From assembly GCA_018350325.1 (NCBI GenBank), contig JAEVLN010000019.1:682001-746000 (forward strand): a stretch of DNA of 64,000 nucleotides. Direction: 5' to 3'. The position numbers and the translations under genes are program-made. This stretch comes from Globodera rostochiensis (taxonomy: Eukaryota; Nematoda; Chromadorea; Rhabditida; Heteroderidae). The notes beneath the pieces are model-generated. The model worked only from the letters and a program-made list of their open reading frames with translations, was not told the origin of the DNA and made no database searches. Each line of letters opens with the position of its first letter. The stretch's first letter is position 1. Positions 3,076-64,000 of this stretch are shown one piece after another.

Positions 3076-5967
3076 TCAAGGCTTAATTCGGTCAACATGG
3101 ACCACTTCTTGCACACCGAATCCGGCTGAGTCCAACGACAAACGACGATTTTGCTGAGTAAGGGAATACTCACGGCGCGGATAGTCCAGCACAAGCTGGT
3201 GGTCGACGGGGGCGACTCCCATCGACAGGAGGAGAGAGAAAAGCGCCTAAAATAATGAACAATAAGCCCTCTGAACCCCACTCATTTTGAGGCATTCGAC
3301 GCCCCGATCCCAAGAAAAACTTACGCTCAAAGGGGCTGCCATCCACATCCGAACGCGCTCGCCTCGACCGTCAGGCAAACGAAGAAGCAATTGGACGACA
3401 CGCGCTCTTCCCGAAACCCCTGCCGATTTGTTTGATTGATCGCCGCTGAGCGTCCAATGACGCCACTCATTCGGGTCCAACAAAGTCTCTGAAAATAGAG
3501 AAAGTTTCAAAAAACATCAATCATTCCATTGACTTGACTAATTTGTAAGCATGCACTGACCAGTTGATGCAGTTGCTACGGAAGGGGACGGGCGGTGCGC
3601 GTAGGAAATGCCGCCATCTTAAATTGGAAAAAGTCTTGGCTGATCAGCAGCATTGGCTGTTTGGTCAGTCAGTCATTCACCGGTGATGGTCACCACCCGC
3701 TTGATCTTCTTAGCCTGTCTGGTCATCTCCTCGTCGCCCTCTGTCGTCGGCTGTTCGTAATCATCCAAACCGCTGGAACTTTCGCTACCCGGCTGTTTGC
3801 GCTTCTTTGTCGGCGTTGTTATTGTGCGATTTGTGGACGACGGCGAAGTTGCATGGAGACAATTGGAATTGTTTGCCTTTTTTGGGTAAAGAATGACGGG
3901 ACTTTCAATTTTATGAATCCAATAACGGGGAGAGGTTTTCCCAACAAATCGACATTTCCGAAATAAGCTTAAAAGAGTCCCTCCGACCGCCTCTCTCCCT
4001 CCACAAGTTTATTGTTCACCTACCGATGCCCGACTTCGGATGAGCCGATCGCGCGCTTCGAATGTTGGGTTTTGATCAAGAAAGGAAGTCACTGGAACGT
4101 CAAATTGCTTTGTTTGAAGACGGAATTCAATGATTTACATGAATCCAGAAAAGAGACCGGTTCGAGAGCTTTCAATCGACCACTCACTTCCTCACCGGTG
4201 CGCGGATCGACAATGAAAATAGCGGGGAAGGAGGTGAGTCTGCGGGAGAATGGACATTAACGACTTCATCTTCCACCAATTTGTGAAAAAAAATGTAAAT
4301 TTGTCAGCCTTTAACTCTGACAAATGAGGCATTTTAATCTATTTCCACTTTTTAATACCCGTAATATCCTCGGATACGGGCCCCGTCTGCAGAGTCATGG
4401 TACACCTTAAAATGCAAAAAAATGTGAACATAAAATTGCATTTGAACCATTAACCTGCCAAAAAAGAAAGTTTGGTCGGACAACTTCGCGCACCGTCTCC
4501 GCACTCCAAATGTCCCGGTTCAGCACCGCACAAGCAAATTCAGACGCTTCCTGCACATTGACCAACAACCAAACGCCCTTCTGACGTGCTGCTTGAAGGG
4601 CCTAAACACCAATTCAATTTGTCGCTGATTCAAATGTCTTTCTCATTAAACAAATCCAAAAATAATGATAACCCCCCCCCCCCCAAATAAATCCAAAATC
4701 GCCTCGCCTGGTCCCAATCGCCTTGGAACATCAACTCGACTGGAGGCCGAAAGATCGACTGCAACACTTTGCGATGCTGCGAATTGGCGGGCCGACTTTC
4801 GTCGTTTTGATTGGGCTGGGCGACCATTGGCAACGGCGGCGCTCGACCCGTTGGCCGAACAATGACTTCTTCGCCCAAATCGGGCCTCATCTGCAAAATC
4901 AAATGCAGAAAATGAGAAAGGACAGAACAAAATTTCACACAAATTACCAAAACCTTGAAAAGAAATAAAACCGCACTCATCAACAATAAGGCATTGCAAT
5001 TCCAATAAAACTGACATTTGGACCACTAATTGCAGCTGCTCTGTGAGACGCCCTCGAAAAAAATGTCGACGGCTGCGCGTCGTGGCGGTGCTGCTCGAAC
5101 ACCGAGTTCCATAAGCGATTACGATTTTCTACAACAGTTTAATTACATTAAAAAACGCAAAAATCGGGAACCAAAGCCAACCCTTACGATATGTCTCGCG
5201 AAATGATTGATCGATTAGCACGCCTTGAACCGGTGCAATTGGAGCTCGGACACCTTCAGAAGCCGCGGGAACAGCCGCTCCATTTTCCGTTTTACCGACT
5301 CCTCTTCTGTCACTTTCTTCAACCATTTGCCTAAAAATGTGCAGATTTTTCAAAAACATATTCTTAAACCAATTCCCCCCCCCCAAAACACTTACACATC
5401 ATTGTCATCGAGTATTTGTACGGAATCGTCCAATTTTGCGGTCCGACGTTTATACATCTAAATCAAAAGTTCTTTAAATAAACGAATTATGCAACAAGTG
5501 TTTGCCCATTAAATTGCAGAATATTTTTTGTATTCAGTCTATGTGTATGTCAGTTGTTAGCCTAGATCAGCACAAAAACCCCTTGATCCTATAGTAAATT
5601 TTAGTTGCATCAGTCCTCCAAAATGATCACTGATATCAGCCCGTACGGGTTCATCAGCTCTGCTGCTGCCGTTTGATGCCTCCCCAACCGTCCACGGACT
5701 GTTAGCAAAATGGGAAATTCGATGGCGTGCTTGGCTTGACGTTGGCTGATCTTCCAACATCACTTCGCCCTCCTCCTCCGCCCAATTGCGTCCCGAGAAA
5801 AAAATGTCAATGGCCCGCTCCACATTCCAACCATACTTAGACAATAATCGACGTGCCTGATCATCGTCTGTGAAGCCTAAAGTATGTTAAATTGAGAGGA
5901 TTTCGAAATGCAAGCAATTTCGACCTGTGAACTCCTTAAAAGATTGCAACGCCTTCTCAGAGCCCAT
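3076..5967 (-). CDS. UBXN7: UBXN7-like UBA-UAS-UBX protein (p97/Cdc48 cofactor)
   Basis: This is a ubiquitin-receptor adaptor that recruits the p97/Cdc48 segregase. Exon 1 (5967 to about 5925) starts MGSEKALQSFKEFTG and exon 2 continues as a UBA domain (LLSKYGWNVERAIDIFFSG). The UAS thioredoxin-like domain follows near 4880-4050, with RPPVELMFQGDWDQ and then VWLLVNVQEASEFACAVLNR, RDIWSAETVREVVRPNFLFW and FPAIFIVDPRTGEE. A basic linker (TPTKKRKQPGSESSSG, about 3780) precedes the C-terminal UBX domain, VVQLLLRLPDGRGERVRMW and then LDYPRREYSL and VQEVVHVDRIKP before the stop at 3076-3078. The order and spacing match UBXN7. The intron beginning at 4707 has a GC donor (CAG then gcgagg). I saw no clear UIM between UAS and UBX, although mammalian UBXN7 has one. 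Exon borders near 5000-5390 and 3500-4050 are uncertain. Confidence 0.88.
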
Positions 5968-6569
5968 AAATAAATTCTAATTATGTAGATTAAATTCAGC
6001 TAAAAAAAGGTAGGGATATTCTGTAGTTCAACATCCGTGAAAAAAACGATTACCTAAATTATATATCAATCGCTTTATTTTTACCAGCTATGCATCGAGT
6101 TGCGGAAATGCCTTTTAGCGAAAGGCATTTGAGTACCCAACTGAGTCCCTACGTAAAAAGGACACTTCAGCGCCAAAAAATAAATTTTAATTGACTTATT
6201 TTCTTTCTTATATTTTATGCCTAATGCTTTGATGATCACGGCACAAAAATAGCCCTTTATGCGTTGGGTTGAGCCTTTTTTGGCAGGAGGTTAATCAAGC
6301 ACATTGCAATGCGTTCTAATGCAAATTAACATTTTTTGAAAAATTATAATGAAAAATTTTAGGAAAACATCGACCTTTAGATGGGCATTTTAAAACAAGA
6401 ACAAATTATTATTGAAATTGTACCAAAATTTGAACATTGTGTAAATCTGGCATTGCCGTGACGGGACGTCCCTAATGTAACGATACAATCATAAAATATG
6501 AGCAGTCATTGGGTCCGATCACTGTGCCTCGAGAGATCATTGGTAATCAGTCCAGTAATCCTTGGTCTT
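5968..6569. other. Intergenic, candidate inversion breakpoint region
   Basis: No coding region is supported. This lies between the 5' end of the UBXN7-like gene and the broken 3' end of the MED14 N-terminal half. It is AT-rich and contains a perfect hairpin at 6106-6130. The homologous continuation of MED14 is not found here but on the opposite strand near 12 kb. Confidence 0.5.
6106..6130. repeat. Perfect 10-bp inverted repeat with 5-base loop
   Basis: AAATGCCTTT at 6106-6115 is followed after TAGCG by its exact complement AAAGGCATTT at 6121-6130. It could fold as a hairpin. It lies in the region where the MED14 gene is interrupted, but no function is evident. Confidence 0.8.
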
Positions 6570-9500
6570 TTATGGGTCCCGTTTCCTATTTCGCTTGTAG
6601 AAAGTTTGGAATGATTCGGACTTTTGCGCAGCACGCAATGAGGTTATTGGAGCCGTTCGGATTATCTAAAAAAGAATTGTCGTAGTTTTGATTAAAATTT
6701 AAGCCTAACTTGTTCTGCATCCAAATCAAGCAGGTTCAAACGATTCTCATTGGCCGAAAAGAGGTGAAAATTGACACAAACACCCATTTGTTCGTCGGGT
6801 ACAAAGGTGACAACCTGAAGCAAGAAAATAGCAGAGTAAAAATCATACAATTTAATAATAATCCACCAAGTAAAATTGATCATCGCGGACAAATTGGAAA
6901 ACTCGACGCTCTGCTGGCAGAGAACCCATTTTAGCCATTAGCGGAAGTGCCTGTGCTTCATTCATCGGATTTACCTAAAATAAAACCTTGGTTATCGGAG
7001 AAAGCTCTGTGTTCGAATTGGACAATTCGTCGTTTTACCTGCACACCGACCAACGCTCTGTTCAGTCGCTCAACAATGACCAGTACACGAAGTCGTATCA
7101 ACAAACGGGCAAACGATTCGATTGTATTGGACGAGAATGAAGAGGAATGCATAAGGACGGGAGCTGTGTTCAATTGGTGTTCCAATTTGTGGATCTCATC
7201 TCGTTGGCCTGGGCGTAAATTACGAAATAATTGAGAAAAACCATGGAAATTGGGGGAAATTTATCGTTTCTTAACACGGTCAAGGCAATTTAACCAACCG
7301 AGCACATCCACCCGAGCAACAATGGCACCGCTAAATGTGTTGACCGCCAAAGTCAGACATTCGTCCGCGTGACAGTCACCGACAAGCACGAGGGGACAGC
7401 TCAAAGTGAGCAGAGAGTGGCCGGACTGGCGAATGCACTGCTCCACGGACTCGGGGTTGGACGGGGAGCAGGGGGAAGGGCACTTTGTATTGTGCCGGGA
7501 TAGACTTCTGTCAGAAAATGTGACCTTTAAAGACCCACAAAATTATGCCTCCAAGGACCTAAAAGCAGCCTCAAGCAGTTGTTTGACAGCCAAAAGCCGC
7601 TCTCGACACCGGAAAAGAATGGTCTCATTGAGCAGTCGCTGGAGGGAAGGACTGAAATTTCAAACAAATGCCAACAACAATAAAATATGGTAATAAAAAT
7701 TGGTTCCCAAACAGTTATTAGTAAAACGGGCAACTACCATCATTTATTGTGTAATCCTGAGCCTTTGCTTTCCAATACCTTTGTTCATGATCAATCGTAG
7801 GCAACTCCAAGTTGGTCGGATGGTGACGAATTTTCAGCCCAACGTGCGGATTATTTTTGTCGCCAAAAATAAGCAATCGATGCTGTGACGTCATCCTTTA
7901 ACATTTTAAAATGCAAAAAAAAATCAAATAAATTGCTTTGCTCTAATTGACTGACCTGCCATGAACGCCTCCCTCTCTCTTCAGCCAGTAAGTGATCGCC
8001 AGTCGGCATTCCTTCTCGTTGTATTCGTCCACTCGGATGTACTGCGAGCCGTCGTGCCCTTTGCTTCTGCTCATTTTGGCAATTTGGAGAGCCTTAGAAG
8101 AACAAAAGCACTCTCCAAAAAGTAATCGCAAATTCAAAAAACACCTGACAAAAAAGAATGTCCAATTGGAGAGAGCGACAGAACCAGTGCAGCACAATGT
8201 ATGCCGCCATAATAGGCTAAACATAAATTTACAATTATTTAATCAAATTTGGACAAAGCCTTCCAATGGCTTCGTACATCTTTTGCAGTGTCGAGCTTTT
8301 CCTGAACCATTTGATGGAGGAAATTAACCTTTAAATGTGATCTGGATTAAACGTTTTAATTGGTTAAAGATTCATTCACTTGCAGCGGATGGACCATTTG
8401 CTGCCCTTCGCCAACTTCCGCACTCTCCACGAGGATCCGGATGTTTAACAGCATCCACCGAGTGTCCGGATCATCTCCCAACCGAGTCAGAGCCATTTCG
8501 AACTCGCCAGGAACCATTAAAATTGCCTAAATTCGACGATCAATTTTTTAATAAAAAATAATAATAAGCGCAAGATCAAATTTACCATTCCGTTTCGCAC
8601 CGCAATTTTTCGGATTCGTGGCGATAGCTGCGCGGCTTGTTGTGCCAAATGGAACTCTATCAGCTGATTAAGGCGACGCAATGTCAGTCGTCGTTCTGTC
8701 GCACTCAACGAGGCTGGCGGAATGAACCGCTCCTTTCAAAAGAAAAAGTTGGGGAATTTGAATGTACGGTTTTTAAACAATATGATTGAGTTTCTCACTT
8801 TGATGTTTTGTGGCAGGCGAGGATAAGAGCCCAATGTGAGCACATCAACTGCTTGAGCCACTTGGAAAGCAGGCAACCTTTCGTTGTTTTATTAATTTTC
8901 CATTTTTTGCGTCCTCTTCCCACACAAATACCTCGCGTTCGGCAGTTCATTCCGTGCAATTTCCACCAAACGATCTGCGGACTCCACGTAACGGGTCGCC
9001 TGTTCATCCAGCAAATGCCGAATGGAGGCTAACGGCTCGAACTTTTTGGCACTTTTCAACCAACGGACGATGGCAAGAAGTCGCACAAAAATTAGACGAG
9101 TGTTGTGGGCAAACTGCAACAGAACATAAATTCGTTCAGACTTATAACAGAATGAGATTTTAAAGAACAACTTGCCTCGACTACGCTGATCTTCCGATCC
9201 GTCTCCTTCTTTTTGCTGTTCAATTCGGACAGAATTTCGAACTGTCGGTAGTTCCAATGAATGGCGAAATCAATGAGCAATGCCAACGAAACGGTTGGAG
9301 GCCCGCACTGGGGAGGCGCCGCGGGCAAACTGGCCAGAGGCGTGGCCAAAGAATTCTTCAAAAGGTGCGCAACAGTGTTGGAAGGAACGCCGGACTGCTG
9401 GGCGGCGCTTAGTCCGTGTTGCTAAAGCGGACAAAATTATTTGAACAAATTGAACACGTCGCGGACCTATTCTAATATAAAAACCCCCCAACAAGACTAA

Positions 9501-9584
9501 GGCCAAAGCATAATGCGGTTTAATGTAAGCATTTATAAAATGGACCTGTCGAATGCCACCATCCTGCCCGTCTTCACCCGTCAT
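6570..9584 (-). CDS. MED14: Mediator subunit MED14, N-terminal half
   Basis: MED14 (RGR-1 in C. elegans) is the backbone of the Mediator complex that links transcription factors to RNA polymerase II. Exon 1 starts MTGEDGQDGGIRQ (ATG at 9584) and splices in frame to exon 2. The conserved N-terminal domain is clear: LALLIDFAIHWNYRQFEIL, then RLIFVRLLAIVRWLKSAKKF, SIRHLLDEQATRYVESADRL, VAQAVDVLTLGSYPRLPQNI, LRRLNQLIEFHLAQQ and ALTRLGDDPDTRWMLLNIRI. Later segments also follow the family in order (VDEYNEKECRLAITYWLKRE, SLQRLLNETILFRCRERLL, RVFQFVRDDQFYLV, VTFVPDEQMGVCVNFHLFSA). The frame then stops at 6570-6572 where human MED14 has about 900 more residues. Those are encoded on the other strand from about 12 kb. 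There is a one-base frame shift near 8300 next to AAAA, and an intron beginning at 8259 with a GC donor. Some exon borders between 6.6 and 7.9 kb are uncertain. Confidence 0.85.
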
Positions 9585-9997
9585 TTGCTTTTGTGGAGGA
9601 TGTTGTTGTGCAGCCAAAGGAGCGGGCTTCCAATCTAACACTCGAAACAGAACAGTCAAAATAATAAACAATTGACACAATAAAGTTCTTTTTAATTAAC
9701 ATAATAACGTGGATGTTACGGACGATAAACAAATGTTTTTATTGCAATGCAAAACATACAAAATGATCAAAAAACATTGACATGAGAAGAACAAAAAAAA
9801 ACAACGGAATAATAAACATAAAATTCAATTCATAAAAAAAGGGAACATATTCAAAGAAATAAATTTACAAAATAAAAAATTCTGCTCTCGCAGAAAGAAT
9901 GAGAACGCCCGTAAAATTAAAATTTCCAAAAGCAGAGAGGGCTTCACCGGTGGTGCTTATTTCAAACAATAAGCAAAGTTGAGTGAATCGCTTTCCC
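9585..9997. other. Intergenic, AT-rich
   Basis: This short stretch lies between the start of the MED14 N-terminal half and the end of the OSTM1-like gene, which both read on the minus strand in the order OSTM1 then MED14. No gene is visible. The short spacing would allow an operon, but I saw no decisive signal. Confidence 0.5.
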
Positions 9998-11470
9998 TCA
10001 CAAATGAAGGGATGAGGTTGGAGTTGAGTTCACATAAGACGAATCCAACGTGGAGGAGGAGAGAATGCGCGACCGAGAGCCAATGGGCTGTGCTTCTTGC
10101 ATTCGAGAATCTGAGAAAATAACGGTTTTTACCCAATAATGAACAGTTCTCTTCCAATTGCTCTCCAAGCAGCACAATTTCATGAAACCCAAAAAACATT
10201 CATAATAACTCACAATGTATCAAATTCGAATTAGTTTGTTCCGACTGGATGTAACTGCCGGCGTAGAAAAGGCAGATGATGATGGCCAACACAGACACAG
10301 AGAAGATGAGGATCTGAATTTATATTGAAACGAATGCGTCAAGAAAACGTACGGTTGTGTCTTGACTCCGGTCAATCGGGGCGTCCGAACACCCCCACAC
10401 GACCTGCCACAGTTTCATTGTGTCGTTCATCTGAAAAAGCTCACTTACTATAAGATGAAAAGACATAGGGCCAATGGATTAAATAAACTTCTATTGAAAT
10501 AATGTCGAAAACCCCGAGAAACCTCGCTGTCCACGTCGATGCAGAAAAATGTGTTGGGGTCGGAGAATATTTTCCAATAAAAGCCAAAGAGTGTCTCATA
10601 TTGTTTTTGGCAGCCCTGGCAAATCTGTCCAGACGAACTTTCATTCAACTTGACCACGCAATCACGCAAATTGTTCAGAAGCTTTTTGAATTCCAACTAA
10701 ACGTGAGAGAAAATAAATTAGATAAGCGCCAAGATTCACCGTCTTATTGTCAAATTTAAATGAGGAGTTTCCGTGCTCAAAGTCCCAATCGATTTGGAGA
10801 CAATCTGTAAAAATGTCAATAAGTATTCATTAAAATCAAAAATGTGCATTTTACAATGACAAGCCGACGCTTCCCAAATGTTTTCGTTCAATGCCATATA
10901 AAGCTGCTGGACGTAACTGACCCGATAACTGTCTAAAATTATATTTTATTTAAATCGCTTCGTAAGTTTAACTGTAAATGACTGCAGTGCACGTTCTGTT
11001 ATCCAGCGACGTGGTATTTACCTGAAATGGGGTTAAAAATCGGAAATGTTTTGCGATTGAAAGATGGGACCGACCAAATGTAAACTTCGGTAATGTTGTT
11101 CCCTGAAGTGAATGTACTGCTCGACACACTTTGTGCAAACTTGAGACGGAGACTGAGGAAATAGGTAAATGAATTGAACATTATTCCACGGCCATACATT
11201 GTTTTCGATGGCGCATTTGACCATGTCCGTGTGTTTAAGTGCTAGACTCTGCAATTTTTGCAAAATCATCAGGAAACCAGGCCAATATATGTACAAAAAT
11301 AAAACCTGAATAAAGGGTTTGCAACTTAAATTGATGTCCCAAAGTTCATCCTCATCTCCCTTTACGAATAGAGTTTTTGGCAGCAAAATAAAGATGATTA
11401 AAAATGTAATTCTGGCATGTGATTTATTCAGAATAAAAGCTTGATGATGGAAGCTACGTTCTAACCTCAT
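9998..11470 (-). CDS. OSTM1: OSTM1-like lysosomal membrane protein
   Basis: OSTM1 is the beta subunit of the lysosomal chloride/proton exchanger ClC-7. The protein starts near 11470 with a hydrophobic leader (ITFLIIFILLPKTLFVKG) followed by a luminal domain. Conserved cysteine motifs appear in order: CTKCVEQYIHFREQHY, then LLNNLRDCVVKLNESS, ICQGCQKQYETLFGFYWKI and FCIDVDSEMNDTMKLWQVVW followed by GC. One membrane segment follows (ILIFSVSVLAIIICLFYAGS), then SYIQSEQTNSN and a serine-rich cytoplasmic tail ending at 9998-10000. The cysteine pattern, the single C-terminal membrane helix and the SEQ motif just after it all match the OSTM1 family. The start is taken at the first Met of the open frame, just before the leader; an earlier exon cannot be excluded. 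The gene lies inside the segment that appears inverted relative to the MED14 C-terminal half. Confidence 0.85.
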
Positions 11471-11959
11471 TTTCAGCTAAAAAAGATAATTAAGAAATGA
11501 GTGAAATTGCAAATATGTTTTGATTTACGGTTTAATTTAGTAAAGCCCGGAAAGAACGGGACTCCCGCAGGAAAAGTTGAGAATGCGGCACGCTAAATTT
11601 TAAATTCGTTTCCGGAAAAATATTTTAAACTTTTTCACGTTCCCGGAAATTCTTGGCGAAATGTCCATTTTATTTTAAATTTAAACTTTCCCGTTCCCGG
11701 AAAACCTTGGCAAAATGTCCCTATTTTTTTTTTAAAATTAATTTTAAACGTGCCGAAGATCGCAAAAATGTGCTCTACCTCTTCTGTTGATTTTCGGGTC
11801 TTTTTGGACACCAATCAAAAACGGGACTAATGAACAAAAAAAGGAAAAAAATTATTGGTAAAAAAAAACCGGGAAATTATAGTACCAAAATGGGGAGAAA
11901 ATCCTTTTTTTTTTTTTGTGAAAAAAGTGTTTTTTTAAAGTGATTTTCCGACGAATTTA
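11471..11959. other. Intergenic with repeated cccggaaa blocks; candidate inversion breakpoint
   Basis: No gene is supported. The stretch holds three spaced copies of a motif around GTTCCCGGAAA with a TTGGC(G/A)AAATGTCC block at 11653 and 11707, plus long A and T runs. It separates the 5' end of the OSTM1-like gene from the first recognisable exon of the MED14 C-terminal half. These are probably remnants of a dispersed repeat. Confidence 0.5.
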
Positions 11960-14900
11960 TTGTTACAAACAAAGGAAAAGTTAGATATGGTGGAAAATGT
12001 TGGCCAAAACAGCGCACAGCATACCTCAATGACCGGACGAGTGGGCACAGAAAATACGCATGAGGACAGCGGTGAAAAAAAGGTAGGGTTTAGTTTAATT
12101 TCATCTCTAATTGGCTTCGATTTTCCAAGAATGGCCGACTTTTGCGCGTTGGCAAATGGCTGGGCACTCACCTCCATCTTCAGGTGCTTTTTTTTTTGTC
12201 GAAAAAAAGCCTAAATTCCACCATCAAAGGCCGCTTTTGCCGCCATCGAAGACCGCCTTTTGTTCTTCCGTTTGTGCGAGGAATTGGACGCGCGTGGCAT
12301 TCTCTACGAGCGGGTCGTTGCCGAACGTATTGTGGGCGGCCATGTGTTGCGCCTAACCGAGTGAAATTTGCCAAATTGCGGCGATATAATCTCATGGTTT
12401 CTCTCAGCATTTCGTCAATGGCCACGCGCCATGGGGTGGAATTTGCGGATTTCTTCCAGAACTTGCTCCATTGCAATATTCGCCTTGCACAGCCCTTCCC
12501 CGAAAGGAGGTCGGTCGCTTAGCCGTAGCCGTCAAGTTCTAATTTCGAATTCTTTTAGTCAACTCGAGTGCACATTTACTAACCCGCCATTGGTGCCCGA
12601 TTTCAACAAGTCCGAGGCGGAGGTTGAAGCTGACAGGCTCAGGGTGTGTTATAGGAAATCCAATTTTGCAACAACAACAAAGTCCAGCCGCAAACCTGGG
12701 TCCAACCCGTCGGCACCGGCCCCCCGCCCTCCCATCGTTCTCGCGCTAAAATGTTCACGGCGCCCGTTGATCAACAGCAGGATTCGGCAACAAATGTCGC
12801 CAGAACGGACCCGCCGGGGGCACCGCTGATGAGCCAAGTGAGTGACCAAGAAAACATCCGAATGAATACACAACAAATTCCAATTAATCAATGTTTAACC
12901 AACTCAGGTAATCGCGCAGAATATTGAGGACAGATTGCTCACTTACTGTCAAATTTACGTCCCGATCAGACGATTTTCGAGCGCTTATTACGCACATTTT
13001 CGTCATTTTTGCAATGTTTGTTTGAGATTAAAAATTCGTCCATTTCCCCCCATAACATTTTAAGATCCGAACTTTTGCCTATTTCAAACTTTCGTTGGCT
13101 TACGGTGACCAGCGCGACCTTCTGCTGGTGTTGGCATGGCGTTGGCAGAAATATTCGCTGTGTTTTGGGCAGGCGCCGCTGCCCTCGGGGAGCGCGTGGG
13201 ACGGACGCAAAGCGGCGAAACGGTGAGGAGGGGAAATGCCCGAAATTCGGGGCCCGAATTCTTATAACTTTCAAAAAAACGGATCAGTCTTGGCGCGTTA
13301 GTGCCATAAATCCCCCCCCCCCCTCTTAAACATTGAAGAAAAAATGAATATTTTTATGCTTTCAAAATGCTAAAATTTGCTGCTTTAAAGGCGCTGGAAT
13401 CCGCACGTGTTGGTCCACCAGTCGCTCACCGAACGTTTCAATCGCGACCGCGACCTGGTTTGGCTGGTCAACTATCTGGTTGCACACCGATTCCTTGCTT
13501 CCCTTTTTAAACTTTTGCCCTCAGATCAACACCCATCGTTCACTGGATTCAATTCACAACTTCGTTCGCACGCAAATGCACTCCACGAAAACAGCGGCCC
13601 AAGTGCTTGGCACCGAAGTCGCATTTCCGGCCGAATTGATGGTGAGACGAGCAAATCGAATTACAAAGCCAAAACTGTAAAATATTAAAATCCTTAAAAA
13701 CCAAAAAAAAAGGAGGCCCCGTCTTAAAATTTCGCTTTTGGAGAAAATGGACGATAAAATCGTTGCTTTTGCACTTTTTTAGAATTGAGTAAGTTTCACA
13801 TCTTCGACGACGGCTAATTTAAATTGAATGTACTGTTAATTCCTTGTCAGTGCCATCTTTGTGCCTTGGACGAGCACACCATCCGTCTCTCCTACGGCTC
13901 CCGGCTGGCCATGGAATTTTTGCTGTTGGACGACAATCGCGTGGCCGTCCGCGACTGCAGCTTTGGTTTAGCGCGTTCTATCGGCGGCGGAGGGCCGTCG
14001 TTGGCGGACTTTTGGCACTTTTGGCAGCAGAAAATGTGCGATGTGCCGTCTCCGGGCGGAAATGGGGAGGAAATTGGAGGGCAAAAAAGCAACAGACGCT
14101 CAACCACTGAACTGCAATTAAAACTTGAATAATTATGTTTAAAGCGATGACGCCTATTTCTAAGTCGAAATCTGTTTATTCTTTCAATTCTTTTCTAATA
14201 TGGAAATTCTTTGACCATGTCTGAGAATATGTCGTTTTTCTTTTTCCCCCTCTGTTTTTGTTAAAGTTTCATTTTAATCGATGTGAATATATATTTTTGT
14301 ATGTATTTTCACAGTGTTTTCATTTTCCCACAGAAATGAATTTTGTGTAATTATTTTAATTCACAATGAAAGGGAAAAAAAGGCTCTGTGTCCTTTTGCA
14401 CACACCTTCATCGATTTTTGCCCATTTTAATTTGCAAAGTGCACCGATTTCCTCGACGAAAGGGACAGATAAGGAAACTGACGGACGAACGGACGGACCA
14501 AAAGACGACAACGCCTCCCCCTTCACTGACTGCTGACATGCCCGGATCCTTTTCATCGTCCTTTTCGACGTTAGCGACCACCAAACAGGTCGGTCGGTCG
14601 GTGGACGTCGTCCCTGCGCATTCCTTCGTCCGCTGTTTTCCCCTGTTTATTTTTGGATGGGTTTGGCATTCTTTTAAATACAACCGAAATGCTTCTTTAG
14701 TGTAAAAAGCAAAAAGTTGTGTTGTATATGTGCCGGGAAAATTTTTGTCACTAACCCGGAGCCAAATACAAAATTTTCGCTTCGCCCTCCGAGGTTCGGG
14801 TTGGAACGGACAACACAAGACAAGGACAAAACTGGTTTTAATTGTTGTCCCCCACCATTTCATATTTTGGTCTGTCTCATTTTTTCTGTGTTTCGAATTC

Positions 14901-17900
14901 GAACCATATGCCGAATACACCTAATTGTTAAGCACCGCAACCATCACCATAAGTCGTCCTCTTCCTCCTCCCCTTCCTCTTCCCATTCCGACTCCGCTCT
15001 CCTGCACATCTCCGCCAACAACGTCAAACAGCAGCAGAACAATCAGCAACGTCCCGTTTCCGTTCCACCGGCAATTTTCCCTGTACTGGCCGAACTTGAC
15101 GAAGGGCTTGTGACAAATTTTACCAGTGAGATGGGAGCAGAAGAAAAAGTGATTTGAACAAGGATTATAACTCATTTTTTATATGAACTGCGATGATTGG
15201 CATGGCAAATTTGTTCCCTCCATTGCAGAAAAGTTCAACGTCCGTAACTCCGACAATGTCCGCACTGCTCGGGCGACAGCCGACCATCAACGAGGACGAA
15301 GACGAGGCTGATTTGACTATGACCGGCACAAACGGCGCCGACAGACGGAGGGCAGTGGAGGAAGAAGAGTCCGTTTCAATGGCACGTTTAAAGCATGTTT
15401 TCTTCGCCAATCTGTACCTTTTCAGCCTGATTTTGGGGTTGCAACGTTTGGTGTCAAGAAAGAACCGCCGGAGGAGATCATTATGTTGGAGGAAGATGGC
15501 CAGAAAAGGTGGGCGGCGGTGGGGCAATGAATCAATTACTAGGCTTTACCAATTTTTTTCGAATGAGTACAACCAGGGCGATGCCGGTATCGTTTCCTCA
15601 AAATACGATATTTACTAGGTTTGCACAAAATCGGTTTTTCGGCGAACCGGTTGCAAGACTTTGATTGTGGTCTTACGATCTGGTTCAAAAAGAAATTTTA
15701 TGATACGACGGTACGATACGATACATAAATCTGGTAGGTACGCCTTGAGCCAACGCAAGAGTTCACTGTCGGCCACGCGTTTCGTGGGCAAAGCTATGGA
15801 CGACGAGTGCCGTGAAGGGGCCGCCCAAGGCGTTCATTCGATGCAATTGAAGCGGGAGGAGGACGACGCCGCCATGGGGGCCGAGCAGCGTCAGAGGGAC
15901 GAGGACGCCGAGTTGGGGGCGGACGCGGCGGCGCGGCAGGCGGCACGACAGCGCAGGCGTGAGCCGGTGGTAGTCGGATGGCGCACTTTGGAACGAACAA
16001 TGCGGGCGATGTCCGATGGTGGGCGCTTTGTTTCCTCTATTTTATATGGCATTTCTGGGTCGGGCGGGCGGGCCGCCCCGGTGATGGATGTTTTCTGTTC
16101 AGACAACAATGGCGGAATGTCCCCGTTGGAGCAGTACCTCCTCGGCACAACTTTGTTGGCTCGTCTCTGCTCTTTTTTTGAAAGGGCATTCGCCGAAGCG
16201 TTACATCCTCAGCGTCAGGGTGACATATTTATTTTTAATAGACAAAAATACGGCGCCCAACTCCAAAATATGGAATGAGTTTAAAGTTCCAAATTGAGTA
16301 AAAAACACTTTATTCTTCATATTTTTGTTTATTTTCACCTTTTTAGGCAGGGCTGGGCGAGAAAGAAAAAAGATTGTATTTTTTTATTGATTTTTTGTTA
16401 TCAATTTCCCAAAAAAATGCTCGATTTGCAACCAAAATGTAAAAAATACGGCAATTTGCAAATGCCATTTACTTAGGTCACCCTGATCAGCGTGGGAAGT
16501 TCAAGTTCAATTTGCCAATAAAAGAGTACGAAGTTGGCGCGGACGGAGTGATGAACGTAACATTTCCGAGGTGGGAGTTAAAAATCAAAGAAATTTAAAT
16601 TATTTTGACTCATCCGCCGTATATTATTTCTCTGAATTTGAAGCTATCCGATGCCGATTTCTCCGCCACTCTCTTCCGCCGTGCCCAGTGCCCTTGGATC
16701 GCCCGGTGATCACTCCTCCGGTCACCAACAGCTGTCCTCCATCTGCATGGTTCGTCTCCAGCTGTTGGTGTGCCCGCAGGAATTCCGTCTAATCGCCAAG
16801 CTGAACTACAGTCAGAGAATTCGAACTATTCTATGCTTCTTGGTCGGTCAATTCTTCCATTTTTAAGCCGGTATCCAATGTCCTGCCGAGTCGGACCTGC
16901 GCGTGTTCGAGCGCTTTTTCGCCCGCATAGTTGTCCAATTGAACAACGAAATGGCCGTGTTCACTTTCGTCACACTGTGCCGTCTCTGTTACCCGCCAAT
17001 GTTTGCCTCATTCGCTCAACTGATGATGGCTCAAATGGTACTGTGAATACGCTCTGAAAGTTATCTTAACTTGTCGGATTCGAGGGGCCGCATTTGAAGT
17101 CGTCAAAAACGATAAAACCCCTCTTTTTTTTTTGTAAATAAAATATAAAAATTTCCATGAAGGAGCCCCAACCGCGTTGGCCATGGCGTGCCGACCTTGA
17201 GCTTGTCCACATTCACACTGATGAGCTGTCCCAACAGCAACCCGCTGGCCCAGGAGGTCAAACGACAGCAACCGGTGGCGCAGGGACCAACTTTCAGCAG
17301 CAGCAGCAGCAGCAGCAGCAGAAAATCCAAAAAATAGTCAAAAACAGTGTCGTGGTCAGTCATCGAATGACACCAATCAGAAACATGGCTCAAAACTGGG
17401 AGATTACAAAATTACACAGGTCCCCGACATGTGCAAGCGCTTTTTGTTCATAATTTCGTTGAAACCGCGTGGACCGAACGCTGCCAATTATCAGCCGCCA
17501 CAGCACCAGTACGGCGGCAAAAGGGCGCAACAGCAAACAAACAGCGACCGTCACCTGCTCACCATGCGCTACGACGTTGACTTGTCCGATTCCATTTTTC
17601 ATTTCAGAAAATTCTTTTTGCAAATTTCAGAGACGAGTTGACACTGCACTTGCCGGATCAGCAACAGTACCAGAAAATGTCTTCTGAAGAAATTCAGGCA
17701 ATCGAAAATGTCCTCAAAGTGCGTTTTCGACGGAACCTCTGCCCAATCGCAAGGCTTTTTAAGACGACGCAGTCTGAACTGTGCCGGCAGTCCGTGGCCG
17801 ACCCATCCAAACAGCAGCAACATCGCGTGCCTCGGTCGTGCTGCATTTGGCCCTGCATTCGCGCTTTGCTGGAGGGTCATCACCACCAACAGCAGCAACA

Positions 17901-17922
17901 GGTCAGTCAGGTGGGCGTGTGA
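11960..17922 (+). CDS. MED14: Mediator subunit MED14, C-terminal half
   Basis: These plus-strand exons continue MED14 from where the minus-strand half stops. Segments in family order are: a charged linker (GRVGTENTHEDSGEKK, about 12050), AAFAAIEDRLLFFRLCEELD with ILYERVVAERIVGGHVLRLT (12.2 kb), MFTAPVDQQQDSATNVARTD (12.75 kb), IRTFAYFKLSLAYGDQRDLL (13.07 kb, like the family's RVYNYRKLILCYG), VLVHQSLTERFNRDRDLVWL (13.4 kb), HTIRLSYGSRLAMEFLLLDD (13.88 kb, like the family's IRLAFRNMYCIDIY), low-complexity Ser/Pro and acidic linkers (14.9-15.4 kb), MSPLEQYLLGTTLLAR (16.1 kb), LRVFERFFARIVVQLNNEMA (16.9 kb) and CKRFLFIISLKPRGPN (17.4 kb). A (CAG)n run lies at about 17300. The first exon and the exact borders are uncertain, and no initiator methionine is convincing. 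That is expected if this is an internal part of a split gene. The stop is placed at 17922. Confidence 0.75.
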
Positions 17923-48927: not shown

Positions 48928-49916
48928 ATGTCGGAGACCAAAATCATTATTGGCATTGCTTCACTGTGTTCCATTGCGGCCATTTTGGCCACACTGGTCG
49001 TTGTGCCTCAGCTGTACCAACAGATCAACGAGGTGAACTCGCGCGTCTTCGACGGTGTTCAGGTGAACAATTCGCCAAAAGACCAATGGCAACGCTTTTC
49101 TGCAGGCCTTCCGTGTGAACACCGACTCGGCCTGGACTGAGCTAATGGACGTGCAGATTAGCGTCACACCACCAAGCCGTCCCCGCGAGAACCCGTTCAA
49201 CTCCATCTTTATGCGCCAAAAGCGTAGCGGTGGATTGCCCTCTCAGTGTGTGTGCCAATTGCAGCAGCCCCAGTGTCCGCCTGGAACTCCTGGACCCCCT
49301 GGCCCACCCGGACCCTCGGGGCAGCCCGGAGGACCTGGACAGCCCGGAGGCCCCGGACAACCTGGCCAACAGCCTCCCCCATGCCCTGCTGCTTCCGCCG
49401 CATGCCCCTCTTGCCCTGCTGGTCAGCCTGGACAGCCAGGAGGCCAGGGACCGCCTGGGCCCCCTGGAGGCGATGGCCAACCCGGACAGCCTGGACAAGG
49501 CGGCGGTCAGGGACCACCCGGTCCGCCCGGACCTCCGGGGCCTGGAGGAAACGCTGGACAGCCTGGAGGACCTGGTCAGCCAGGACAGCCAGGAGCTCCC
49601 GGAACAAAAAGGTCAGAAAACTGTCTATAAAAAAGAGTCAATATTTGTTTAATTTAGCTCTTCATCGCCCGGTCCCCCCGGACCCCCTGGACAACCAGGA
49701 GGAAACGGACAGCCCGGTGGTCCTGGTCAACCCGGACAGCCCGGAGGACAGGGACCTCCCGGACCTTCTGGTCAGCCAGGAGGACCTGGACAGCCAGGAG
49801 GCCCTGGACAGCCCGGAAACGCGGGCTCATCTGGCCAGCCTGGCCACGACGGTGCTTACTGTCCTTGTCCACCTCGCACCAGCGTTTTCGCTCGTCGAAG
49901 CCGTGTCAAAGTGTGA
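48928..49916 (+). CDS. Cuticle collagen
   Basis: This is a typical nematode cuticle collagen with three exons (48928-49060, about 49104-49611, about 49658-49916). The N-terminus [20 protein letters not shown] plus [13 protein letters not shown] is the usual membrane-spanning segment. After the first intron comes [18 protein letters not shown], matching the family's N-terminal domain. A subtilisin-like processing site (FMRQKRSGG) precedes the first cysteines ([14 protein letters not shown]). Two Gly-X-Y blocks follow, interrupted by a cysteine knot region ([17 protein letters not shown]). The second intron lies within the repeats. The C-terminal domain has CPCPP and ends [13 protein letters not shown] at 49914-49916. 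Collagens of this type are secreted by the hypodermis, trimerise and are crosslinked into the cuticle. The ORF that reads through the first intron (ending at 49140) is not the true product. Confidence 0.93.
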
Positions 49917-50101
49917 TTGAACAAAAGAAAGCAAGCGATCATAAGACGCATCCGACAACCCTTCAACCGATTGAAACATTTTTCAAATTGGCACAATTCA
50001 TCCATTACATTGGCATTTTGAGAATAAAAATGATGCCATAAAAATTTTAATGAAAAATTAAACTTTTGCGAAAAAAATAAAAAGTTAATAATAATTTTCT
50101 T

Positions 50102-55560: not shown

Positions 55561-56452
55561 TGGGTGGACGAGTGGCGGTGCTCTTCACATCGGACGGACG
55601 CATCTTTCACAAATCTCTCCAAATATTCCCGCAAAGAGAGAAGAAGCTTTGGGGTTGAGGGTCGAATGCCGAACCCGGATAATAAAAGCAAAAGCAAATT
55701 GTTTTTTAGAAAATGTGGAAATATTTATGAAATTTATTTATTTATTTAAATTTTTTCGAAGAATTGATATGTTCGAACAACGGCTATGATTACTTCTCAA
55801 TCACTACGATTCGTCGTCAAGAAATGCGAAAATGCCTTTGATTGATTGGTGAAGAGGGGAGTCATTTTTAGGATTTTATTACTTAAAATAATTCGTTCTC
55901 ATTATGCCCAAATTTTATTTATTATTATTTATACGTTTATTTTGAATTTATGGCATAATTAATTTAATTTTTAAATTTTTTCCTTATTTTATACAAACAT
56001 TTTCCAGTTGATTAAATTGAATTTGTTTGATTGCATGCTAAGAAATTGGCTTATTTTAATTGTTATTACTTTCCTAAAATTAAAATTTGATTTTTTTTTA
56101 TTAATTTCCCTTCGCTTATTTCTTCACTTTTTAATTCAGTTCGTCCAAATATAAAACTGGATCGTTATTCGACTCAATCGTTTCGATTCGTTGGCCACTC
56201 AAATTTCTCGGCATTTTCATTCTCGAAATTAATTAACGATACAATTAACGCAAAAGGCAATTTCAATTGGTGGGAAAATGGAATAAATAAGAAAAAAGCG
56301 AAAAGTATTTGCCCATTCCCATCGCTATAAATTGCGCATTAAATCAGTGACACAAACATAAATTAGTTTATAAATGCATGAAAATTGCTAATTAATTTGT
56401 ATTAATTTAATGCCGTAATAGCAAATGATTCTAATTGTAGACGCCGCCAATG
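55561..56452. other. Intergenic, AT-rich
   Basis: No gene is supported. The sequence is strongly AT-rich between the poly-G array and the 24-bp minisatellite. Confidence 0.5.
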
Positions 56453-57005
56453 TTAGGGCATTGGTAAAATGCCAATGTTGGGCATTGATAAAATGCCAAT
56501 GTTGGGCATTGATAAAGTGCCAATGTTGAGCATTGATAAAGTGACAATGTTGGGCATTGATAAAATGCCAATGTTGGGCATTGATAAAGTGCCAATGTTG
56601 GGCATTGATAAAATGCCAATGTTGGGCATTGATAAAATGCCAATGTTGGGCATTGATAAAGTGCCAATGTTGGGCATTGATAAAATGCCAATGTTGGGCA
56701 TTGATAAAATGCCAATGTTGGGCATTGATAAAGTGCCAATGTTGGGCATTGATAAAGTGCCAATGTTGGGCATTGATAAAATGCCAATGTTGGGCATTGA
56801 TAAAATGCCAATGTTGGGCATTGATAAAGTGCCAATGTTGGGCATTGATAAAATGCCAATGTTGGGCATTGATAAAGTGCCAATGTTGGGCATTGATAAA
56901 GTGCCAATGTTGGGCATTGATAAAGTGCCAATGTTGGGCATTGATAAAGTGCCAATGTTGGGCATTGATAAAGTGCCAATGTTGGGCATTGATAAAGTGC
57001 TTGAG
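56453..57005. repeat. 24-bp minisatellite, about 23 copies
   Basis: The unit GCCAATGTTGGGCATTGATA plus AA(A/G)T repeats head to tail with very few changes; the main variation is A or G at one position. Because the unit is 24 bases and lacks stops in four of the six frames, it gives long open frames on both strands (MPMLGIDK repeated on plus, ALYQCPTL on minus). These are artefacts: they have no start context, splice partners or biased substitution pattern. Several copies are identical, suggesting recent expansion. Confidence 0.95.
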
Positions 57006-57080
57006 GAGGGCTAATAATTTAAATTAATTAGCATTAAAAAAATTTCTGCAACAAATATTTTGCTTTTTTATTCGTTGCCT

Positions 57081-61900: not shown

Positions 61901-64000
61901 TTGAACGTTAGTTACAGCGACCGGTTGGCACGATTGCTGCGCGAGGTGGCACAACTGCAGGCGATGGGACTGAAAGTCCCCGCCAAAATCATACAATGCG
62001 TCAGGCAGGGCGAGAAGTTCTATCAGTACGGGGTTCTTCTCAAACAGGCATCAAATAAAAATTCATAAAATTTATTTTGAAAAACGGCTAAAGGTCGCCC
62101 ATTTTTACAACACCATCGAGCAGCAAATGCTGCCATGTCAGCAGGCGATGTTGCTGGACGAGGCGTTGGCCTTCGAAAGGCTGGTTTTGCCGTCGCCGGG
62201 GGGGAAACAAAGGGAGGAAAGGGGCGCTGCTGCAGTCAATATCACATGGGAGAACCCTGAGAAGTTGAAGCAGTACATCAACAAGTTGCGTGAGGCCGCT
62301 TTCAACCTGACCAACCACAACAGACGACTCAGAAAGGTGGCTGAAAGATTTGTGTTGGGAATGGGCCTTAATTATTTTTGTAATTAATTGAGGCACATGC
62401 CGAAATTACGCAAATTGTGGCCGAATTGGGCCACGTGGATTTGTTGCGGGAGGAGGAGAAATGGTCGGCCAAACTAATTGAAATACGGCAAAAGTTTGTG
62501 GACGAGGAGCGTTTCGTGGCGGTCAAGTCGAACATGCAGCCGTGGGCCAACCATTGGAATCGGCAGCTGTACAAAGTGCTCCAGTTGCAGTTCCGCTGGG
62601 CCATGGAAGACATTGACAGCCAAATACCAACTTTGAACGCGCAATTGGTCAGGCAAAGAACCCAATTTTTGGCTAAAACTCCATGGCTTTGGTGGGTTTT
62701 TGAAGGTGTTTCGTGACGAACGGCTCCAATTTCGTCCTCCGTTGGAGGAGTTGCGTCAGCAGTACTACAAGGGACTGCGCAAGTTGCTGTCCACCCCGCA
62801 ACGGTTGCGGGGAGTGCAGAACAACACACGGGAGATGGAGCTGTTCGGACGCATTGTCGCTAGAAATGCCAGTCGCTTCCACCAATTATATTTACGCTCC
62901 GAGGAAATGTTTGAAAGACTGCGAACGATCGACAGAAACTTTGACGAATGGGTGGCACTGGCACAGGTCGAAAAAATAAATCAAATTTTGAAATTAATTA
63001 ATGCGCTTTTTGTGTAGGTGAATTTGGAGGATTTGCTGGAACAAAATTTGCATAATGCCTCGGATTGGGAGCATCAGCTGAACTTGTTGAAACAGAAACA
63101 GCGATCGGCGGAGAGAATTCCCAACGAAATTCGGGTCGACTGCGTTCGCGTGTCCACTGCGGGGGTCCGGACATTCGCTTTGGACTTACTCAAAAGGTGC
63201 AAACAATTAAATTACTCATACAAAATAATACGAAATGTACTCGCCCAACTTCATTTGCTCAGATTCCATGACGCCCTTTCATGGACACTTCGCCATTCCA
63301 TTCGGACGGAGTTGCAGTCTGTCGAACAGACTTTAAGCCAAGGCGTGGACAAATTGTCCAAATTGCCCGAATCGCTTGAAGAAGTTGCGGAGGCCAATTA
63401 CACCCAATCGACGCTTGCGAAGAGTTCCAAAGTGATCCGCACCAAAATTTACAATATTGAGGAGAAAGATCAGCTTTTGAGGCAATTTATTTTCTTTTGG
63501 CATAGAAAATGCAAAAACTTTCTTTTATTTTTTGTCAGATCATTGTTCGGCAGTGATCAAGGCGTAGATTCCGTTCCATTAACCAAAGATCAGTTCACAC
63601 ATTTTCTGAGTCTTCTCGAAGGGCACGAACTGGTGATGAGGGACCAGGTGAATGTGATGAAGGAGAAGGTGAGGGAATCGCTGCAGAAGTTGGGCGACGA
63701 CCTGGAGAAGTTGCACTCGCTGTGGAACCAGTTCAAGCCTCGGTCGGAGATATTTACCTCACAGGCATTTGGTTCAAGATGTTCAAGCAGTTCATTTATT
63801 TTAATTGCAGGACGATCGGATGGCGTTGGTTAAAGCGGTTGAGTTCATCCGTGGAAAGCGTCAGGAATTTGACGCGATAGTGAAGAGAATGAACAAAGTG
63901 CGCATGGAGTGCGAGCAGTTCGAGTTGGAGCAGTCGGAATGGCCTCTTTTCGTGGAGTTAAATGAGGATTTGGAGCAGTACGAGTCCAATTATTTGCTGT
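58977..64000 (+). CDS. DYNC2H1: Cytoplasmic dynein-2 heavy chain, N-terminal tail (cut by window end)
   Basis: Dynein-2 heavy chain (CHE-3 in C. elegans) drives retrograde intraflagellar transport in sensory cilia. The proposed start gives MSRRENATGGGSDQRKAYLL (58977), continuing with ILSLNLTEERLPNATALNAF and CDSEAPLLVISRRDQ after a one-base shift at a GGGGG run near 59055. Many exons then follow the family in order, for example RVLFYKNRNQPLALDDYKQK, ALFRSSETLRLALNLATHWC, IAWIRNNSVQVDKLSKASSK, EELKTAEQEQFDAWCRDMLA, VSYSDRLARLLREVAQLQAM, VAHFYNTIEQQMLPCQQAML, ITWENPEKLKQYINKLREAA, MQPWANHWNRQLYKVLQLQF, LQFRPPLEELRQQYYKGLRK and VMRDQVNVMKEKVRESLQKL. The window ends in the tail, before the AAA motor domain. 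Introns near 59.9-60.5 kb are filled with simple repeats. Confidence 0.88.
59919..60165. repeat. Imperfect AT-rich tandem repeat in a dynein-2 intron
   Basis: Variants of TTTAATTTAAATTGTGAATA plus TTTTGA are repeated about ten times with irregular spacing. The array fills most of one intron, between the exon ending near 59900 and the one starting near 60176. Confidence 0.85.
60331..60519. repeat. 23-bp tandem repeat in a dynein-2 intron
   Basis: The unit CTTAAATAAACTAATTTATA plus AAA is repeated about eight times almost without change. It fills the next intron of the same gene, so two neighbouring introns have independently expanded by different repeats. Confidence 0.92.
60816..60872. repeat. 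Tandem duplication of a 27-base unit
   Basis: GATCAGATTTTTGATGCTCT plus TAAATCT occurs at about 60816 and again, with one change, directly after it, followed by a third partial GATCAGAT. It lies in an intron of the dynein-2 gene. Confidence 0.8.

Follow-up and report, generated by a model that had tools for sequence, protein, structure and literature searches.

In animals and yeast, MED14 (Rgr1) is a single polypeptide. The break-up of such a large complex subunit is known from rpoC, which in plastids and cyanobacteria is encoded as separate subunits after gene fission, so that what was one ancestral chain is now made as several subunits of a single complex. In mammals, MED14 extends for over 350 Å between the Middle hook and the Tail, according to the available part of PMC7921410, and it is regarded as the chain that holds the Mediator modules together. 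As described in the part of PMC12719649 that was available, human MED14-NTD (residues 1-760) and MED14-CTD (residues 754-1455), made separately, each join Head and Middle, and MED14-NTD alone sustains transcription in vitro. The present analysis concerns the MED14 locus of the potato cyst nematode Globodera rostochiensis, contained in a window of 64,000 nucleotides (assembly GCA_018350325.1, contig JAEVLN010000019.1, positions 682,001 to 746,000 of the forward strand). Whereas the human fragments were engineered by a cut near residue 757 (same part of PMC12719649), the breaks in the nematode gene appear to be natural, lie at other points and delimit three pieces. None of the listed titles and abstract beginnings of the open-licence literature on MED14 or Mediator with nematode, Meloidogyne, Globodera or gene fission (for the last, 15 of 294), or on gene fission and operons in nematodes, reports the split.

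Exon models resolve MED14 at this locus into three open reading frames (ORFs) on two strands, each having a start and a stop codon of its own, called MED14-N, MED14-M and MED14-C (N, M and C below), with positions counted from the first letter of the window:

9584-6570, minus strand: MED14-N, 16 coding exons, 665 amino acids, from ATG 9584 (MTGEDG) to TAA 6570 (KRNRKRDP); exon model with introns placed by hand
11830/11987-14132, plus strand: MED14-M, 12-exon model, 466 amino acids when the recorded first exon (11830-11857) is included, the start being ATG 11987 in the model built here; stop TAA at 14130-14132; RM5, RM6 and the next repeat (Pfam and fold)
14538-17922, plus strand: MED14-C, 12 coding exons, 656 amino acids, from ATG 14538 (MPGSFS) to TGA 17922; exon model

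We consider it probable, on the basis of these models and their homologies, that MED14 has undergone fission and that the products are separate polypeptides predicted to join Mediator, and the split looks like a real and old break-up of the gene rather than a sequencing mistake. With three ORFs on two strands, a single continuous backbone chain from Middle hook to Tail is not encoded here. The final models, 40 exons in total, read through without a frameshift or an internal stop codon; apparent frameshifts following LTE in M and close to QEKLD in N disappeared when short introns were placed. The three pieces align in order on the single-chain MED14 of Ditylenchus destructor (residues 50-615, 636-984 and 1133-1406) and are thus homologous to consecutive parts of it; the breaks correspond to residues 616-635 and 985-1132 of that chain, unaligned stretches that look like linkers. 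The initial annotation had described two head-to-head halves; the split and the head-to-head arrangement hold, with three ORFs rather than two, and its C-terminal half, correctly placed on the plus strand at about 12.0-17.92 kb, consists of M and C, which are separated by 405 nucleotides.

A 267-residue stretch of N matches both PF08638, the Med14 N-terminal domain (E-value 1.4e-42; 145.7 bits, the cut-off being 25.6), and human MED14 (E-value 2.2e-60), in agreement with the initial annotation, which had read the N-terminal part of MED14 on the minus strand from 9584 to a stop at 6570. Over residues 1-649 the model is identical to the recorded G. rostochiensis protein P0006. Intron 2 of N (9114-9175, minus strand) has a GC-AG splice pair, a class that makes up about 5% of Heterodera introns according to the available part of PMC11817004. 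M is assigned to MED14 because of its D. destructor match, its Pfam RM6 hit and its fold. The translation of the 12-exon model equals the recorded 466-residue protein P0001 letter for letter, and contains RM6_Med14 (E-value 2.8e-08, 34.2 bits, above the cut-off of 27) and RM5_Med14 (E-value 0.0018, 18.4 bits, under the cut-off of 22). M thus combines the RM5/RM6 repeats with the MED14 fold: in a Foldseek search with its predicted structure, all eight rows at E-values of at most 0.001 were Mediator chains, half of them named MED14 and the other four belonging to entries that contain MED14 sequence, with the chain letter not displayed. By sequence, the M profile resembles human MED14 weakly (E-value 0.25 for 7emf_N and 0.21 for the best chain). 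The fold alignment places the start of M at about human residue 634 and stops at 1190-1207, overlapping the region aligned by C. Both ends of M are disordered in the predicted structure (residues 1-54 and 437-466).

C is recorded separately as P0013 (A0A914HV01_GLORO, 653 amino acids), which, like P0006, may derive from the assembly that also contains the window. Residues 1-253 of this recorded protein have a predicted local distance difference test score (pLDDT) below 50, and the match of C to the MED14 fold is a weak one from a poor model (mean pLDDT 40.8); an hmmsearch against the PDB took in whole MED14 rows and is uninformative about C. The corresponding protein of Globodera pallida (P0014, A0A183CH71) bears the source name 'UDENN domain-containing protein', with no UDENN in the precomputed Pfam column.

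Gene models in relatives place the G. rostochiensis pieces in an evolutionary frame. The N search, with lengths of 603-1920 amino acids among which full-length chains could appear, returned seven proteins: those of G. rostochiensis, Heterodera trifolii, Meloidogyne hapla (682 amino acids, a separate N) and G. pallida are N without M, and those of D. destructor, Aphelenchoides fujianensis and the clam Mactra antiquata are longer chains that also match M, the Mactra chain being matched by N and M only. The M search (432-residue query), whose length limits would hide a full-length MED14 chain, gave five proteins of 255 to 501 amino acids, each with RM6 (PF22984) in the precomputed column, the species being displayed for P0003 (H. 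trifolii) only. The C search, with lengths of 361-1148 amino acids into which a joined M+C protein would fit, gave three proteins of 630-653 amino acids, from G. rostochiensis, G. pallida and H. trifolii. The comparison with related cyst nematodes that had been proposed as a check yields the same N, M and C in H. trifolii as three separate gene models, niasHT_016855 (N), niasHT_016823 (M) and niasHT_016844 (C), each listed with a contig 468218 bases long; judging by the tag numbers, the three may not be adjacent there. These tags presumably stem from the published H. trifolii genome, which, according to the part of PMC11817004 available, was built from long reads with models from RNA-seq and PacBio isoforms. 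In G. pallida, C is likewise separate and the N model, P0010, is truncated. D. destructor, A. fujianensis and Mactra have single chains, and G. rostochiensis and H. trifolii have separate, complementary pieces; at the level of gene models this is the pattern of gene fission, with one gene in outgroups and pieces in the ingroup.

Conservation and copy number bear on the proposal that the locus is a decaying relic, with function supplied by another copy or with MED14 lost altogether. Such decay is scarcely credible given that all three frames are open over 40 exons and that H. trifolii retains about 80% conservation for N, 80% for M and 61% for C across genera. Nor did genome searches of the 92.6-Mb, 80-contig assembly, in which only the best candidates were scored and distant copies could escape, find a second locus for the pieces: M, C and the PF08638 domain, which belongs to N, were each placed at this locus only, which lends no support to an intact MED14 copy elsewhere. 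In that assembly the window is part of contig 11.

The pieces could also be rejoined at the RNA level, trans-splicing between N and M yielding one MED14 protein. Nematodes trans-splice leaders, and the pieces are complementary and in order. Against this very unlikely outcome, every piece carries a start and a stop codon, and disordered residues (M 1-54, pLDDT below 50) sit at the break; in H. trifolii the pieces are modelled separately; and the tail of N is common to G. rostochiensis and H. trifolii nearly up to the stop, at a score reached by 0 of 5000 shuffles. A tail of N common to Meloidogyne and Globodera had also been expected and was unsupported, the score of G. rostochiensis against M. 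hapla being reached by 1354 of 5000 shuffles.

Gene fission into three polypeptides, the preferred reading, faces several points on the other side. The C model and P0013 disagree at an insertion of 3 residues, over a stretch of 15 residues and in the final residues; the fold model of C is poor, with the mean pLDDT given above; and the overlap of the M and C alignments leaves the M|C boundary on human MED14 unfixed by fold. P0006 diverges from the N model past N residue 649, P0010 of G. pallida spans N residues 1-268 only, and the recorded N models P0006, P0007 and P0010 are all fused to neighbouring genes. The attribution of P0002 to G. pallida M and of P0004 and P0005 to Meloidogyne M is a guess. 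A single shared N|M event is not proved, since the similarity of the N tail between G. rostochiensis and M. hapla does not exceed that of shuffles. Finally, a Meloidogyne C part was not found in the C search (361-1148 amino acids). This last result also fits an alternative in which the N|M break alone is real and M and C form one gene, splicing skipping the M stop and the C start to give two polypeptides in all. M and C indeed lie on the same strand, 405 nucleotides apart, and gene predictors can misjudge a low-complexity linker such as the one between them. We nevertheless regard this as unlikely, though less so than the other alternatives: H. trifolii has M and C as two models, P0001 and P0002 show no difference over the final 28 residues of M before the stop, C begins with a similar methionine exon (MPGS/MPGG) in G. 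rostochiensis, G. pallida and H. trifolii, and no joined M+C protein occurs among the three C-search matches although the lengths allowed one.

The genes around N bear on the orientation of the locus:

9998-11476, minus strand: OSTM1 (osteopetrosis-associated transmembrane protein 1), between the MED14 blocks; start approximate, stop TGA 10000-9998
9743 and 9635, minus strand: OSTM1/MED14-N intercistronic signals, AATAAA from 9743, followed about 100 nucleotides on by a TTAG that ends at 9635 and resembles a splice acceptor
4600-5960, minus strand: first part of a UBX-like gene downstream of MED14-N; approximate, continuing below 4600, with ORFs matched by eye to P0007/P0010

The position of OSTM1 between the MED14 parts on the minus strand, as the initial annotation had it, is borne out by PF09777 in P0006 (E-value 1.3e-51) and by its stop. 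Relatives of the UBX-like gene carry UBA and thioredoxin-like domains. OSTM1, N and the UBX-like gene are co-oriented over 4600-11476 (minus strand), and recorded models fuse them in three species: OSTM1 with N in P0006 (G. rostochiensis), N with the UBX-like gene in P0007 (H. trifolii), and OSTM1, part of N and the UBX-like gene in P0010 (G. pallida). Nematode operons consist of co-oriented genes with about 100 nucleotides between the poly(A) signal and the next splice acceptor, the downstream genes being trans-spliced. The spacing from OSTM1 to N is possibly compatible with an operon, and the fused models, hinting at either an operon or misannotation, are probably annotation errors.

The same models weigh on the idea of an assembly error, in which MED14 would be a single intact gene and the segment at 6.5-11.9 kb would have been assembled the wrong way round. 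One inversion would indeed set N upstream of M in order. Turning that segment would, however, put N and the UBX-like gene on opposite strands, and the models P0007 and P0010 run from N into the UBX-like gene. Since gene models run on only through co-oriented neighbours, those of G. pallida and H. trifolii require the orientation seen here, which disfavours a misassembly. In addition, H. trifolii shows the same pieces apart, the M/C split exists without any inversion, and a search for inverted repeats of at least 30 bases (seed 14) in window positions 1-24000 found none. An assembly error, one of the explanations offered by the initial annotation, is thus highly improbable, and its view that a single inversion accounts for everything fails at the second break: M and C share a strand, so turning 6-12 kb cannot create it. 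The N|M break itself may stem from an inversion, from some other rearrangement or from the acquisition of a stop codon and a start codon. The separate-polypeptide option raised at the outset is the one that the ORFs support, with three pieces instead of two.

Under fission, MED14 would have been broken in the cyst nematode lineage, and for at least N in root-knot nematodes too, giving three predicted polypeptides in G. rostochiensis: N as the core scaffold part, M from RM5 onward, and C as the extreme C-terminal, Tail-facing part. The breaks would fall in linkers that separate folded parts. Each polypeptide would most likely take up its normal position in Mediator, N as the core scaffold and M and C docked with the Tail, and the backbone would be re-formed with no covalent chain running through it. 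That the pieces are translated separately, assemble together, remain functional and go back to a single ancestral origin is what we infer. A MED17 family search, intended as a positive control, gave no match in G. rostochiensis or in 14 control genomes and is uninformative on Tail-module gene content.

Elsewhere in the window, a tandem array of a short unit keeps two minus-strand reading frames open at 56388-57023; a long ORF at 63018-63833 (plus strand) resembles, by eye, what we take to be a dynein heavy chain; and the later part of an ORF at 49228-49920 (plus strand) has a collagen-like proline-rich spacing by eye. Rfam and tRNA scans of the whole window gave no matches.

For annotation, the locus is a warning, as MED14 genes are filed under 'Uncharacterized protein', 'UDENN domain-containing protein' or an OSTM1 fusion. 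For the biology of these nematodes, it is somewhat favoured that the Mediator backbone of cyst and root-knot nematodes consists of three separately encoded subunits, so that the core (N) and the Tail-facing parts (M and C) could be made, dosed or exchanged independently. If this is true, an animal lineage with a three-gene MED14 would show that the covalent tie of the backbone is dispensable, and would provide a natural test of backbone continuity in which separate regulation of core and Tail becomes directly testable.
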